Part shown: piece after piece, positions 3,014 through 7,662 of the stretch
Layout of the letters: every line of letters starts with the position of its first letter
How positions within the stretch are numbered: the first letter of the stretch is position 1
Source of the DNA: an uncultured Prevotellaceae bacterium
Lineage (GTDB): Bacteria; Bacteroidota; Bacteroidia; Bacteroidales; Muribaculaceae
Reading direction: 5' to 3'
DNA length: 64,000 bases
NCBI GenBank assembly: GCA_900318535.1
Contig: ONKU01000004.1
Span: 104,682-168,681 of the forward strand
Program-made: the position numbers and the translations under genes
The notes under the pieces: generated by a model
What the model saw: only the letters and a program-made list of their open reading frames with translations
The model's database searches: none
Told to the model about the DNA's origin: nothing

Positions 3014-4183
3014 TTAAAATCCGCCGCGTCGGATGGATAAACTGATGGCTCCCTCAGGGAAACTGCTGCGGTCGCAGCACACGAGGGCCAGGTAACCGCC
3101 TCCACCTGCGCCAGGCATCTTCCAGGCCAGCACACCGTCCATGGCGCTGTAACGGTCGATGTAGTCCTGCACACCAGGCTGGATCATGGCGGGGAACATC
3201 GCCACCTGGGCCTCGAACGAGGCCTTGTAGGCACTGGCAAATGCCTCGATATCCATCTGATGGATTGCCGTCCAGCAGCGGTCGGCAGCAGCGGCCAGCG
3301 CACGCACCTTCTCGGGCGTGATGTCTTTGCCCTCGACGACGCTGCAACCCGGCCGGCGCGGAAACATCGGTATCATGCACAGGTGGTCCTCAAGCCATTG
3401 CAGCAGGGTAGGGTCTTGGGTGTATTCAATCTTCTCGGGCCAGTAGCTGCCATTATAATAATGACGCGCGAGGCCAGGCACACAGATGCCGATGGCGTCC
3501 TGGGCACCGCTCACGATGCCGTCGCTGCGTTCCGGGTCGTTCTCGAGGCAAAAGACCAGCCGCGCCAGCATCTCGGGGTCCATGTTGGGCAACTGATAGG
3601 GCCACACGCGCTTGATGGTGTTGCGCGTGCTGGTGGATAGGCCGCAGCGCTCGCGAATCTCGAAGGTGGGTTCCAGCGAGATGGTCAACGCCCAGCCCGG
3701 GGCATGGCACGACACGTAGGGCTGGTCAATCCACGTTCCCGCCAGATCCAGACGTGTGGGCAACTGGCTTGCCGACTGCTTCAGCCCCGTGCTGCTGCGC
3801 GCTTCCAGTCCCTCGCCGGGCACGCGCTTGAGCACGATATATTCCATGCCGCGGTCGCGGCACAGCTGACGCTTGTCGTCGCGGTCACCATCCTCGTTCA
3901 CCACCAGGCAGTCGGGGTGCACGAGATCGAGTGTGGGCAGGAAATCGAGGTAACCGTCACCCTGGTTGATGTACGCTTCCTTGACATAGCGGATGGCGCG
4001 CACCATGAACAGGCGTTCCTGCTCGCTGTACATGGTCTTGTGCCCCTTCAGTGCCTCAATGGTCTTGTCGCTGCCGATGCCCACGTACAGGTCACCGTAT
4101 TGCGACGCCTGCCTGAAGAATTCCACATGTCCCGAGTGCAACAGATCGTAGCACCCTGACACAAAAACTTTCTTGTTACTCAC
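3014..4183 (-). CDS. Nucleotidyltransferase - GHMP kinase fusion protein of the fucose-type operon
   Basis: 389 residues with two domains. Residues 1-135 form a cytidylyltransferase-like fold: KKVFVSGCYDLLHSGHVEFF carries the nucleotide-binding HxGH (His16-His19), and a YSEQERLFMVRAIRYV segment follows. Residues about 140-389 resemble a GHMP sugar kinase: PTRLDLAGTWIDQP matches motif 1 of fucokinase/HddA-type kinases, GIVSGAQDAIGI takes the place of the ATP loop, and PGAGGGGYLALV (about 357-368) is motif 3. Bacteroides Fkp also joins a fucokinase to a nucleotidyltransferase, but that enzyme is far longer and of a different transferase type. The likely role is phosphorylation, and possibly nucleotide activation, of a deoxyhexose. 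First gene of the operon; -7 box at 4215-4222. Confidence 0.75.
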   Translation of the reverse strand: MSNKKVFVSGCYDLLHSGHVEFFRQASQYGDLYVGIGSDKTIEALKGHKTMYSEQERLFMVRAIRYVKEAYINQGDGYLDFLPTLDLVHPDCLVVNEDGDRDDKRQLCRDRGMEYIVLKRVPGEGLEARSSTGLKQSASQLPTRLDLAGTWIDQPYVSCHAPGWALTISLEPTFEIRERCGLSTSTRNTIKRVWPYQLPNMDPEMLARLVFCLENDPERSDGIVSGAQDAIGICVPGLARHYYNGSYWPEKIEYTQDPTLLQWLEDHLCMIPMFPRRPGCSVVEGKDITPEKVRALAAAADRCWTAIHQMDIEAFASAYKASFEAQVAMFPAMIQPGVQDYIDRYSAMDGVLAWKMPGAGGGGYLALVCCDRSSFPEGAISLSIRRGGF

Positions 4184-4214
4184 TGTCGTCTAAACTATTC
4201 TGAGGTTTCAACGA

Positions 4215-4222
4215 CAAAGGTA
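4215..4222 (-). promoter_or_regulatory. -7 box of the fucose-type operon
   Basis: TACCTTTG on the minus strand, 32 nt before the start codon of the kinase fusion. I see no clean TTTG at -33, which would fit an activator-dependent promoter. Confidence 0.5.
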
Positions 4223-4249
4223 CAATTTCCAGTCCACAGGAGCATCATT

Positions 4250-4276
4250 GAGGGCGGAAAAATGTCTCCCGCCCTC
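4250..4276 (-). terminator. Terminator of trpB2
   Basis: GAGGGCGG and CCGCCCTC form a perfect 8-bp stem with an 11-nt loop, about 30 nt beyond the trpB2 stop codon. No strong U-tract follows, as is common in this phylum. Confidence 0.6.
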
Positions 4277-4307
4277 TCAGCTTACTTGTTCAACTTTTAT
4301 AAAGAAA

Positions 4308-5663
4308 TTATTCGGGTACCCTATTGAGTGTCTGCTGGATATCCTCGTCACTCACCCTGTGGTTGACCAGGTCTCCGTTCAGGTATTGGTCATAGGCGCT
4401 CATGTCGATCAGGCCGTGGCCGGACAGGTTGAACAGGATAACCTTCTCTTCGCCGGTCTGCTTGCATTTCTCGGCTTCTCTAATGGTGGCGGCGATGGCA
4501 TGGCTCGACTCGGGGGCAGGAATGATGCCCTCGGTGCGGGCAAAGAGCATTCCGGCATCAAAGGATTCGAGTTGCGGAATATCTACGCCACGCATCAGCC
4601 CATCCTTGAGCAGCTGCGAGATGATCATGCCTGCACCATGATAGCGCAAACCGCCAGCATGGATGTTAGCGGGCTTGAACGTGTGACCCAGCGTGAACAT
4701 CGGCAGCAAGGGCGTGTAACCCGCCTCGTCGCCAAAGTCGTAACGGAACTGGCCACGGGTGAGTTTCGGGCAGCTGTCGGGCTCGGCGGCAATGAATTCA
4801 GTGTGCTTGCCGTCTTTCAGGTTATGGCGCATGAAGGGGAAAGCGAGACCGCCAAAGTTGGAACCGCCTCCGAAACAGGCGATGACCACATCGGGATATT
4901 CGCCAGCCATGGCCATCTGTTTTTCAGCCTCCAGACCGATGATGGTCTGATGAAGGCCCACATGGTTCAGTACCGATCCCAATGTGTACTTGCAGTTGGG
5001 CGTGGTGGTGGCCAGTTCTACGGCCTCAGAGATGGCGGTGCCCAGCGAACCCGGGTGATGCGGGTCACGCGTAATGATGTCCTTGCCGGCTCGGGTGGAC
5101 ATCGATGGCGAGCCCGTCACGGCAGCACCGAATGTGCGCATGATCGATGAGCGGTAAGGTTTCTGTTGCATGGAGATTTTTACCTGATAGACAGCGGCTT
5201 CAAGATCAAACACCCTTGCTGCATAGGCCAGGGCGGCACCCCACTGGCCGGCACCGGTCTCGGTGGTGACGTTGGTGGTGCCTTCCTGCTTGGCATAGTA
5301 GCACTGCGCCAGAGCCGAGTTGATTTTGTGGGATCCTAACGGATTCACCGACTCGTTCTTGAAATAGATGTGAGCGGGAGTTTGCAACGCCTTTTCCAGG
5401 GCATAGGCACGAACGAGTGGCGTGGAGCGGTAGAAACGGTACTTTTCAAGCACCTCGTCGGGAATGGGGATGAAGTCATGCTCGGTGTCCAGTTCCTGCA
5501 CACAGCATTCACGCGGGAAGATGTGGGCCAGGTCATCCACGCCCAGCGGCTGCTTGGTGGCCGGATGGATGGGAGGAAGCGGTTTGGTGGGCATGTCGGC
5601 CTGAATGTTGTACCATGCTGTGGGCAACTCGTTCTCTTGAAGGATAAATCGTTTCTGTTTCAT
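4308..5663 (-). CDS. trpB: Tryptophan synthase beta chain, TrpB2 type
   Basis: 451 residues from the ATG at 5661-5663. A longer reading to 5708 would run through the attenuator terminator stem and is rejected. The enzyme is PLP-dependent and joins indole to serine. It has the extended N-terminus and length of TrpB2 (about 420-460) rather than TrpB1 (about 395). YRSTPLVRA lies near residue 80, the PLP lysine is in NPLGSHKINSAL (Lys113), TETGAGQWG follows, and CFGGGSNFGG binds the PLP phosphate. No other trp gene is adjacent. It is expressed as a single gene behind a Trp-codon attenuator (5692-5826), so it should be made when charged tRNA-Trp is scarce. That argues for a real role in tryptophan synthesis or indole salvage. 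Confidence 0.92.
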   Translation of the reverse strand: MKQKRFILQENELPTAWYNIQADMPTKPLPPIHPATKQPLGVDDLAHIFPRECCVQELDTEHDFIPIPDEVLEKYRFYRSTPLVRAYALEKALQTPAHIYFKNESVNPLGSHKINSALAQCYYAKQEGTTNVTTETGAGQWGAALAYAARVFDLEAAVYQVKISMQQKPYRSSIMRTFGAAVTGSPSMSTRAGKDIITRDPHHPGSLGTAISEAVELATTTPNCKYTLGSVLNHVGLHQTIIGLEAEKQMAMAGEYPDVVIACFGGGSNFGGLAFPFMRHNLKDGKHTEFIAAEPDSCPKLTRGQFRYDFGDEAGYTPLLPMFTLGHTFKPANIHAGGLRYHGAGMIISQLLKDGLMRGVDIPQLESFDAGMLFARTEGIIPAPESSHAIAATIREAEKCKQTGEEKVILFNLSGHGLIDMSAYDQYLNGDLVNHRVSDEDIQQTLNRVPE

Positions 5664-5691
5664 CGTTGATGATAGTTTATAATTATTATTT

Positions 5692-5724
5692 AAAAAGGTC
5701 TGCCGCAAGAACGACAGACCTTTT
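5692..5724 (-). terminator. Attenuator terminator in the trpB2 leader
   Basis: On the minus strand AAAAGGTCTGTCG (5724-5712) pairs with CGGCAGACCTTTT (5705-5693) across a 6-nt TTCTTG loop: 13 bp with one G-U pair, ending in a run of five T. It lies 29 nt before the trpB2 ATG and after the leader peptide stop, the position of a trp attenuator. Its 5' arm can instead pair with 5759-5767, giving an antiterminator. Confidence 0.85.
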
Positions 5725-5760
5725 AGTGTTTTAATGTAACCTCTACGGATTCCATGATGG

Positions 5761-5826
5761 TCAGGCGACTCGCGATGATTTGAATCTCGAGCTGCGCCAC
5801 CACCAATATGAAGAAATTATAGTCAT
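5761..5826 (-). CDS. trpL: trp leader peptide (21 residues, three consecutive Trp codons)
   Basis: ATG at 5824-5826, stop TGA at 5761-5763. The peptide begins MTIISSYWWWRSSRF; Trp8-Trp10 are read from TGG TGG TGG at 5797-5805. Trp is the rarest amino acid, so three in a row in a 21-codon frame between a consensus promoter and a terminator hairpin is the hallmark of ribosome-mediated attenuation. The last two Trp codons overlap the 5' part of stem 1:2: GGCG (5795-5798) and CTCG (5788-5791) pair with CGCC (5764-5767) and CGAG (5769-5772). A ribosome stalled at Trp would hide strand 1 and free strand 2 to pair with the terminator's 5' arm. Too short for ordinary gene calling. Confidence 0.85.
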   Translation of the reverse strand: MTIISSYWWWRSSRFKSSRVA

Positions 5827-5851
5827 TGACTCAATATTTATGTTGATGCCG

Positions 5852-5883
5852 CAAATTTATATTCATTTCTGCGTATGGGCAAA
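5852..5883 (-). promoter_or_regulatory. Promoter of the trpB2 leader transcript
   Basis: Minus-strand TTTG (5880-5883), 20-nt spacer, TAAATTTG (5852-5859): exact consensus. The start site would be near 5845, giving only about 20 nt before the leader peptide ATG. Confidence 0.8.
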
Positions 5884-5992
5884 ATTTTTTGAGAAAAAAT
5901 TGCGCAATATCGCTCACAACTACGGTAAACGGTCGGGATTGCCCGCACTGTCCAAAGAAAGCGTCTTATTAAATAATGTATAGGCACATTTA

Positions 5993-6024
5993 TTTGGTTT
6001 TGTTAGGGAAAAAGCCTAACTTTG
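5993..6024 (+). promoter_or_regulatory. Promoter of the HerA-like ATPase gene
   Basis: TTTG (5993-5996), 20-nt spacer, TAACTTTG (6017-6024): exact consensus, about 48 nt before the ATG. Divergent from the trpB2 promoter. Confidence 0.75.
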
Positions 6025-6072
6025 TGACCGACAAACATCGTAACATAACAATAACCAATATCATACAACATC

Positions 6073-7662
6073 ATGTACACTCAAGAACACGGATTCTATA
6101 TCGCCCATGGTCCCAACGGACCCATCAGCATCCTGGGCAACATGGCCAACAGGCATGGACTGATTGCCGGTGCCACGGGAACGGGTAAGACGGTGACGCT
6201 GCAAGTGATTGCCGAGAGTTTCTGCAAGGCCGGGGTGCCCTGTTTCATGGCTGACATGAAGGGCGACTTGTCTGGCGTGAGCCAGCCGGGCAAACTTTCA
6301 GGCTTTATCGAGAAGAGGCTGCCCGAGTTCGGCATGAACCAGGAAGACCTTACCTTTGAAGGCTGTCCTGTAAGGTTTTATGACGTTTTTGGCGAGCAGG
6401 GCATCAGCATGCGGGCCAGCCTTGGTGAGATGGGACCCGATCTGGTGGCCCGCATCCTGAGTTTGAACGAGACTCAGACCGGCGTGCTCAATATCCTGTA
6501 CCGCATCCTTGATGAGAAAGGCATCCTGCTGGATGACATCAAGGACTTGCGTTCGGCACTGGACTGGCTGTCCAAGCATGCCAAGGAATACACCACCCAG
6601 TATGGCAACGTGTCCACGGCTAGCATCGGTGCGATTCAACGTGCCATCCTGCAGCTTGAGAACCAGGGCGCTGACAAGTTTTTTGGCATTCCCTCGTTTG
6701 ATATCCAGGACCTGTTTGCCACCCGTGACGGCAAGGGTGTGTTGAGTGTGCTCGCTGCCGACAAACTCATGCTGCAGCCCAAGTTGTACTCGACTTTCCT
6801 GCTCTGGCTGCTGAGTGAGCTTTACAGCACGCTGCCCGAGGTGGGAGATCTGGAAAAACCCAAGCTGGTCTTCTTCTTTGATGAGGCACACATGCTGTTT
6901 GAGGACACGACCAAGGCGTTAGGAGACAAGATCGAGCAGGTCATCCGCCTGATCCGCAGCAAGGGCGTGGGCATCTTCTTCATCTCGCAGTTGCCCACCG
7001 ACATCCCCGACATTATCCTGGGTCAGCTGGGCAACAGGGTACAGCATGCCCTGCGTGCCTACACGCCGCGCGACCAGAAGGCCGTCAAGGTAGCGGCCGA
7101 GACCTTCCGCGCCAATCCCGCGTTCAAGACCGAGGAGGCCATCCTGGAATTGGAGACAGGTGAGGCCCTGGTATCGTTCCTTGACGAGAAGGGCGCCCCG
7201 AGTGCCGTAGAGCGTGCCAAAGTGCTCTTCCCGCTGAGTCAGATCGGTGCCATCACCGAGGGACAACGTCTGGACATCATGAATGCTTCTGGCGACATCA
7301 ATGCCAAGTACAAGCAGGTAGGGGAGAGGGAAAGCGCGTTTGAGGTGTTTGCCCGTGAGAGCGAAGCCGAAGCCAAAGCCAAGGCAGCCGAAGAGGCCGC
7401 TGCCGCCAAGGAGGCTGAAAAAGCGGAAAAATCCAAGAAGAAAGAGAAAACCATCTGGGACAAGGTGTGGAAAGCCGTCGTCACTGCCGTGACAGGCACG
7501 CTGGCCACCATCCTGGGCAAGACGGTTTCAGACACCATTACCGGCAAGAAGGGTAAGGGCACCAGCATCAAGGATGCTGCCGGACGAGCCGCCAAGAACG
7601 CCACCAGCGCTGCCGGACGCCAGATCCTGCGTGACATCCTGGGCAATGTGGTCAAGAAGTGA
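6073..7662 (+). CDS. HerA-like helicase / DUF853 family ATPase (YjgR type)
   Basis: 529 residues. Residues 1-440 match the HerA-FtsK-related DUF853 ATPases, cytoplasmic NTPases of unclear role thought to act on DNA. Walker A is GATGTGKT at 33-40, Walker B with catalytic Glu is LVFFFDEAH near 264-272, and a sensor-like IFFISQLPTDIPD follows about 30 residues later. The N-terminal HGLIAGATGTGKTVTLQ and the ADMKGDLSG segment are typical of the family. Residues about 440-500 are rich in Ala, Lys and Glu (a likely helical linker), and the tail is basic. Unlike HerA proper, no NurA nuclease gene is adjacent. A single-gene transcription unit: own promoter upstream, 16-bp hairpin downstream. Confidence 0.85.
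   Translation: MYTQEHGFYIAHGPNGPISILGNMANRHGLIAGATGTGKTVTLQVIAESFCKAGVPCFMADMKGDLSGVSQPGKLSGFIEKRLPEFGMNQEDLTFEGCPVRFYDVFGEQGISMRASLGEMGPDLVARILSLNETQTGVLNILYRILDEKGILLDDIKDLRSALDWLSKHAKEYTTQYGNVSTASIGAIQRAILQLENQGADKFFGIPSFDIQDLFATRDGKGVLSVLAADKLMLQPKLYSTFLLWLLSELYSTLPEVGDLEKPKLVFFFDEAHMLFEDTTKALGDKIEQVIRLIRSKGVGIFFISQLPTDIPDIILGQLGNRVQHALRAYTPRDQKAVKVAAETFRANPAFKTEEAILELETGEALVSFLDEKGAPSAVERAKVLFPLSQIGAITEGQRLDIMNASGDINAKYKQVGERESAFEVFARESEAEAKAKAAEEAAAAKEAEKAEKSKKKEKTIWDKVWKAVVTAVTGTLATILGKTVSDTITGKKGKGTSIKDAAGRAAKNATSAAGRQILRDILGNVVKK

Follow-up and report, generated by a model that had tools for sequence, protein, structure and literature searches.

The window analysed here is a stretch of 64,000 nucleotides from an uncultured Prevotellaceae bacterium. 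It contains a stand-alone trpB2 gene (4308..5663, minus strand) that encodes a protein of 451 aa. The product scores over the cut-offs of both TIGR01415 (584.9 bits; cut-off 518.85) and NF009057 (682.2 bits; cut-off 366), and its best matches among solved structures include the TrpB2 chains 4qys and 6hte. The next gene on the trpB2 strand encodes a protein with a cytidylyltransferase-like domain, and the divergent neighbour encodes a HerA-like protein. Both neighbours recur in leader-bearing relatives: HerA and the cytidylyltransferase-like gene each adjoin trpB2 in 8 of 18 loci, in a set composed of 15 loci from an 80-locus comparison plus three further genome regions, several of which end nearby. 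The location of trpB2 is thus kept in close relatives.

Leader anatomy upstream of trpB2

The region preceding trpB2 had been described, in a sequence-only reading of this DNA, as a complete Trp attenuator. We re-read the minus strand between 5692 and 5882 and found the promoter, the 21-codon leader, the Trp codons, the pairing strands and the terminator at the coordinates originally assigned to them. The promoter-like element (5852..5882) consists of TTG (5882-5880) followed, after 20 nt, by TAAATTTG (5859-5852), an arrangement that we take to correspond to the Bacteroidota promoter consensus. The leader ORF of 21 codons (MTIISSYWWWRSSRFKSSRVA; 5761..5826) runs from an ATG at 5826-5824 to a stop at 5763-5761. 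Sequence and alignment place its three consecutive Trp codons, TGG TGG TGG (5805-5797), within strand 1 (5784..5805), which is delimited by the fold and by its pairing with strand 2 across leaders. Strand 2 (5755..5776) can pair with strand 1 or with strand 3 (5711..5724), and strand 3 with strand 2 or strand 4, according to the fold and the alignment. Strand 4 and the T5 tail (5692..5706) form, together with strand 3, a putative terminator hairpin (5724-5693) that is closed by the T5 at 5696-5692, and whose assignment relies on the 3:4 pairing and its covariation. All these elements lie on the minus strand.

In the window, the possible 1:2 pairs are GGCG (5798-5795) with CGCC (5767-5764) and CTCG (5791-5788) with CGAG (5772-5769), and CGCCTGACC (5767-5759) is complementary to GGTCTGTCG (5720-5712) at 7 of 9 positions, exactly as had been counted before. 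The computed fold energies are -22.3 kcal/mol for strands 1 and 2, -11.0 kcal/mol for strand 2 to strand 3 with strand 4 omitted, and -21.1 kcal/mol for strands 3 and 4. The fold of the segment 5690-5805 has a z of -5.52, and none of 200 shuffles was equally good. The 1:2 helix extends into the Trp codons, and thus two segments compete for GACC of strand 2, namely UGGU at the Trp codons of strand 1 and GGUC of strand 3. The bare word TGGTGGTGG is not rare, since it occurs 3 times in the window against 0.85 expected. A simple terminator scan of 4150-6100 called none, probably because four of the five Ts were counted as pairing with four As.

Conservation of the leader among relatives

We aligned 36 distinct leaders with MAFFT, without fitting the alignment to a structure. 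The Trp codons are preceded by an in-frame ATG within 45 nt in all 36 leaders (3/36 for each of the other frames), and TAnnTTTG is preceded by TTG at 19-21 nt in all of them. This in-frame conservation, together with the shuffled folds of the window, rules out a chance origin of the arrangement.

The three pairings are conserved to a similar degree and differ in covariation. The 3:4 pairing is present in 95.6% of 504 cells and shows double changes in 5 pairs and 21 cells, a number of double-changed cells that none of 500 shuffles reached. The 2:3 pairing is present in 94.4% of 251 cells with two double changes on two pairs; 8 of 500 shuffles had as many such pairs, and 53 of 500 as many such cells. 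One of the two double changes lies in L155, a doubtfully aligned leader whose terminator differs. The 1:2 pairing is present in 96.3% of 575 cells and has a single double change, which is not above the shuffles (105 of 500 were as high). When the partners were slid by 1-3 columns as a control, the paired fractions were 30-47% (1:2), 35-52% (3:4), and 8-49% (2:3). The best strand 2-to-3 fold contains at least four canonical 2:3 pairs in 32 of the 36 leaders; the exceptions are the window (folded without strand 4) and L152, each with only 3 pairs, and L010 and L033 with none. Thus, the 3:4 stem covaries, 2:3 is conserved with weak covariation, and 1:2 is a conserved pairing with little covariation. 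As a check, the sequence-only reading had suggested looking in relatives for conserved Trp codons and for compensatory changes in the three pairings, and a loss of the codons or pairings would have spoken against it. The Trp codons and the pairings are indeed kept, but good covariation is limited to 3:4, and the window's own best fold has few canonical 2:3 pairs.

The sole 1:2 double change is that of the window itself, CTCG/CGAG vs the CTCA/TGAG of its relatives, and the same site has a G-U step in L141, L135, and L023. The change to CGAG removed the TGA that ends the leader of many relatives, so the stop shifted to 5763-5761 and the helix was kept. As far as sequence can tell, the comparison across relatives supports a function for the leader.

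When 80 trpB2 loci were compared, 15 carried the leader on the locus. In 62 of the 80, the stretch before trpB2 contains neither an ATG-started ORF with WW or WCW nor a match to R1, a model that we built from 19 trpB2 leaders only. This locus set and the genome set described below partly overlap and share duplicate leaders. On a quick TrpB2 tree of 124 rows, with identical proteins dropped, L004 scored as leader-bearing and L177 placed on a very long branch, the leader label is clustered but needs 7 changes, and the starred branches force 6. A single gain of the leader without loss is therefore not borne out on this tree.

The L004 locus starts 119 nt before trpB2, and the leader of the same genome (G180) is found at another contig end. 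Insertion-element-like sequence is present on both pieces of that genome (C3 and C45, i.e., the end of L120/L130 and the start of L004/L086), between the leader and trpB2. Three loci carry eroded leaders, L157 (G261), L054 (4856-4973), and L027 (4804-4950). They keep the promoter and the hairpin, with the terminator still before trpB2, and miss the Trp codons and strands 1-2; in L157, the leader and strands 1-2 are deleted.

The tryptophan pathway and the role of TrpB2

A TrpB2 with 88-100% identity is encoded in 29 of 101 genomes of the genus, in two pieces in G249 and partially in G226. All 29 have an R1 match, one of them eroded (G261, L157), and trpB2 directly follows this match in 27, G261 among them, a contig end intervening in G180 and G270. 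In G249 (C101, 7985-9336), the two pieces of trpB2 are separated by an internal stop and the leader is intact, which may reflect a frameshift or an assembly error.

The trpA gene was detected in 5 of the 101 genus genomes. Neither trpA (0/29) nor trpC (0/29) was found in the genomes with a close TrpB2, in a search confined to these two genes and in genomes that are incomplete, completeness being at least 90% in 18 of the 29. The genome to which the window belongs (G000, 92.3% complete) likewise yielded no trpA or trpC in its own search. The one PALP-family gene detected in it was trpB2, which leaves no cysK- or thrC-like member of that family among its detected genes. This bacterium, a relative of rumen Prevotella, seems to have lost most of the Trp pathway. 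Another 35 genus genomes encode a full-length TrpB2 at 69-73% identity with no R1 match beside it in a strict-filter search (in G225 and G040, R1 matches weakly elsewhere, on other contigs), and 34 of them are also without trpA, which is present in G200. These 34 genomes rule out that trpA loss simply goes with the leader, and they indicate that the salvage state does not require it.

With no sign of trpA and trpC, the most likely substrates of TrpB2 are outside indole and serine, which it would join to form Trp. The enzyme had been considered either biosynthetic or an indole-salvage enzyme; the genome searches favour salvage, and a biosynthetic role is less favoured. Passages of PMC11085991 describe bifidobacteria that turn outside indole into Trp through TrpB, and cite an archaeon, equipped with both TrpB1 and TrpB2, that converts indole to Trp. 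Parts of PMC9026213 report gut genomes in which TrpAB is the sole remainder of the pathway.

We propose, with a probability of roughly 80%, that the leader is a Bacteroid-trp-type attenuator, in which the ribosome governs transcription, and that it stands before trpB2 alone and places indole salvage under Trp control. The original suggestion of a Trp-leader attenuator before a single trpB2 is thus supported by the anatomy of the leader and by its conservation in 36 leaders. When charged tRNA-Trp is plentiful, the ribosome would reach the leader stop inside strand 2 and mask this strand, 3:4 would form, and transcription would end. When charged tRNA-Trp is scarce, the ribosome would stall at the Trp codons located in strand 1, 2:3 would pair before strand 4 is made, and trpB2 would be transcribed. 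As trpB2 stands behind an apparent Trp-sensing RNA switch, the salvage of a neighbour's waste indole may be a regulated process.

The alternative that survives best accepts that Trp is sensed by stalling and has the 3:4 hairpin act on translation, on RNA stability, or on a Rho-dependent ending. Many close relatives have short T tails (TTTAA or TTCAG in several) and the scan called no terminator, as this alternative would predict; however, the tails of outer members such as L009, L011, and L015 are longer and T-rich, the 3:4 stem strongly covaries, and the hairpin ends about 29 nt before the trpB2 ATG and leaves the start codon uncovered, so we regard it as unlikely. It is less probable still that the attenuator works and TrpB2 does something else than form Trp, for example break down serine. 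Sections of PMC1854888 hypothesise a serine deaminase function, but they also report poor deaminase activity of the tested TrpB2 proteins; moreover, control through Trp codons suits a Trp-forming step, and the archaeal conversion cited above points the same way. That the leader is a non-functional leftover of a trp-operon leader, as the eroded copies (L157, L054, L027) and the insertion in G180 could suggest, is hardly credible when start codon, frame, promoter, and pairings are kept in 36 distinct leaders.

The proposed attenuator would link indole salvage, in bacteria apparently without the remaining Trp pathway, to a regulatory signature that can be read in the sequence.

Relation to other amino acid leaders

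At gathering thresholds, Rfam reports only a tRNA in the whole window. Relaxing these limits brings up a match of the leader to RF01692 (Bacteroid-trp) that spans model positions 1-131 of 131 at 33.5 bits (E 0.033). This score is under the gathering cut-off of 49, and thus the leader is not a formal member; judged by this full-length match, it is a divergent relative of RF01692. No T-box and no fitting riboswitch was present among the Rfam matches up to E 10 in 5600-5950, and both candidates were rejected.

RF01692 matched 7 times at E up to 0.1 across 198 genomes of the family, each time below the cut-off; five of these matches are in the window's own genus, and those of G083 and G149 precede genes that look trpB1-like by eye. 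Across 149 genomes of the order, 20 matches were obtained at E up to 0.01, of which 7 were over the cut-off; the gene that follows the 20 is trpB1 (12), trpE (7), or trpB2 (1). In L170, trpB1 lies about 0.85 kb beyond the match. NCBIfam models were also applied to the trpB2 and to three of the trpE genes, trpE_most being the best model but under its cut-off. L147, L155, L130, L150, and L156 have no RF01692 match up to E 1. The R1 model, trained as it was on trpB2 leaders, recovers all 21 loci with trpB1, trpE, or trpB2 leaders (the 20 RF01692 loci of the order plus L156) with 29.6-78.7 bits. R1 also scores the reverse strands of palindromic terminators with up to 40.6 bits, and therefore low R1 scores are weak evidence. 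Among its weak matches in other genera, L159 adjoins trpB1, and L158 and L160 show no leader with two or more Trp. The likeness between the two sets of leaders suggests that the trpB2 leader probably descends from a trp-operon leader.

Two further genomes present parallel arrangements. G198 contains an orphan trpB1 (L182, 12665-13948; C104), over the cut-off of TIGR00263, behind a leader of 57.6 R1 bits that has no RF01692 match. Its convergent neighbour resembles, by eye, a glutaminyl-tRNA synthetase gene, and trpA and trpC were not found in this genome. G479 (L177, L181; C159), from another family of the order, has a solitary trpB2, 59% identical, with an RF01692-type leader of 40.8 bits and neighbours unrelated to Trp; no trpC was found and all trpA matches were under the cut-off.

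The leaders of L008, L009, and L012 read TCWCWR, i.e., Cys-Trp-Cys-Trp. Among the 75 loci with at least 1 kb of sequence after trpB2, these three are the only ones in which a same-strand cysK lies no more than 1 kb away. This cysK passes TIGR01139; the gene after it is cysE-like, with scores under the cut-offs. A second short ORF with CCCC or CCC is located between trpB2 and cysK in L008 (6687-6900) and L009 (6400-6648), followed by a hairpin before cysK of -25.6 and -25.5 kcal/mol, respectively, with a competing earlier pairing; the folds have z of -5.0 and -3.9, with 0 of 200 shuffles as good in each case. In these two loci, the stretch from trpB2 to cysK showed no TAnnTTTG. In L012 (6357-6369), cysK begins 13 nt after trpB2, without a second leader. 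A scan of the loci for poly-Cys leaders with a terminator returned L008, plus the doubtful L055 and L063; L009 was probably missed because only three Ts follow its hairpin.

We tentatively consider that the leader moved onto an orphan salvage gene, that its codons follow the genes served, and that with cysK and the cysE-like gene it became a serial two-gate Trp/Cys circuit, a scheme that we hold to be possible and still the less probable outcome. Gate one, the Cys-Trp-Cys-Trp leader, would open on lack of Trp or Cys, and gate two, the poly-Cys leader of two of the three loci, only on lack of Cys. Several observations speak against it: L011, beside L009 on the tree (support 80), lacks cysK and has WWW; L006 and L023 contain Cys codons although cysK is missing there; a proper T run is lacking after the L009 hairpin; and the second leader was seen in two loci only. 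Moreover, L008, L009, and L012 are close kin, and thus the pattern may go back to one event. Intact, codon-swapped, insertion-split, and eroded leaders, together with this Trp/Cys leader pair, form a natural series on how the sensed amino acid may change in attenuators.

The sequence-only reading had treated Trp-leader attenuation as essentially new to Bacteroidota, which does not hold. Table 1 of Weinberg et al. (2010; PMC2864571) places the Bacteroid-trp motif in Bacteroidetes, the pertinent part of PMC6414381 describes it before the Flavobacterium psychrophilum trp operon and likens it to the E. coli leader, and portions of PMC9723704 and PMC7366714 note that Flavobacterium shows signs of leader-peptide attenuation and that Bacteroides has short ORFs reminiscent of it. 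Since this motif and these leaders are in the literature, and similar leaders precede trpB1 or trpE in other Bacteroidales, the attenuator class was already known. What is unusual is the gene context: a solitary trpB2, which recurs in a second family (G479), and an orphan trpB1 (G198). Our literature search, largely outside subscription journals, returned no description of a Bacteroid-trp leader before trpB2 or of Cys leaders in Bacteroidota. In marine organisms, attenuation has been argued, in the relevant part of PMC2395257, to be superfluous for detached trp genes; in contrast, the detached trpB2 described here has a putative attenuator.

Like RF01692, the trpB2 leader combines consecutive Trp codons in a leader peptide, a hairpin, a terminator-like end, and a downstream trp gene in Bacteroidota; unlike it, the gene served is a solitary trpB2, whereas 19 of the 20 matches in the order precede trpB1 or trpE. 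Bacteroid-trp-like control would thus extend to solitary trpB2 genes that the Rfam cut-off misses. In mycobacteria, sulphur genes are preceded by poly-Cys leader attenuators, whose short ORF carries a run of Cys codons. In L008 and L009, the second leaders resemble them in these three features, a likeness of layout, but they occur in Bacteroidota and are placed behind a Cys/Trp leader and trpB2. In the E. coli trp attenuator, the stall codons lie in strand 1 and three pairings exclude one another. The trpB2 leader likewise has its Trp codons in strand 1 and would share the set of competing pairings. It differs in serving one salvage gene rather than an operon, in that the Trp codons themselves pair in strand 1, and in that the leader stop of the relatives falls in strand 2.
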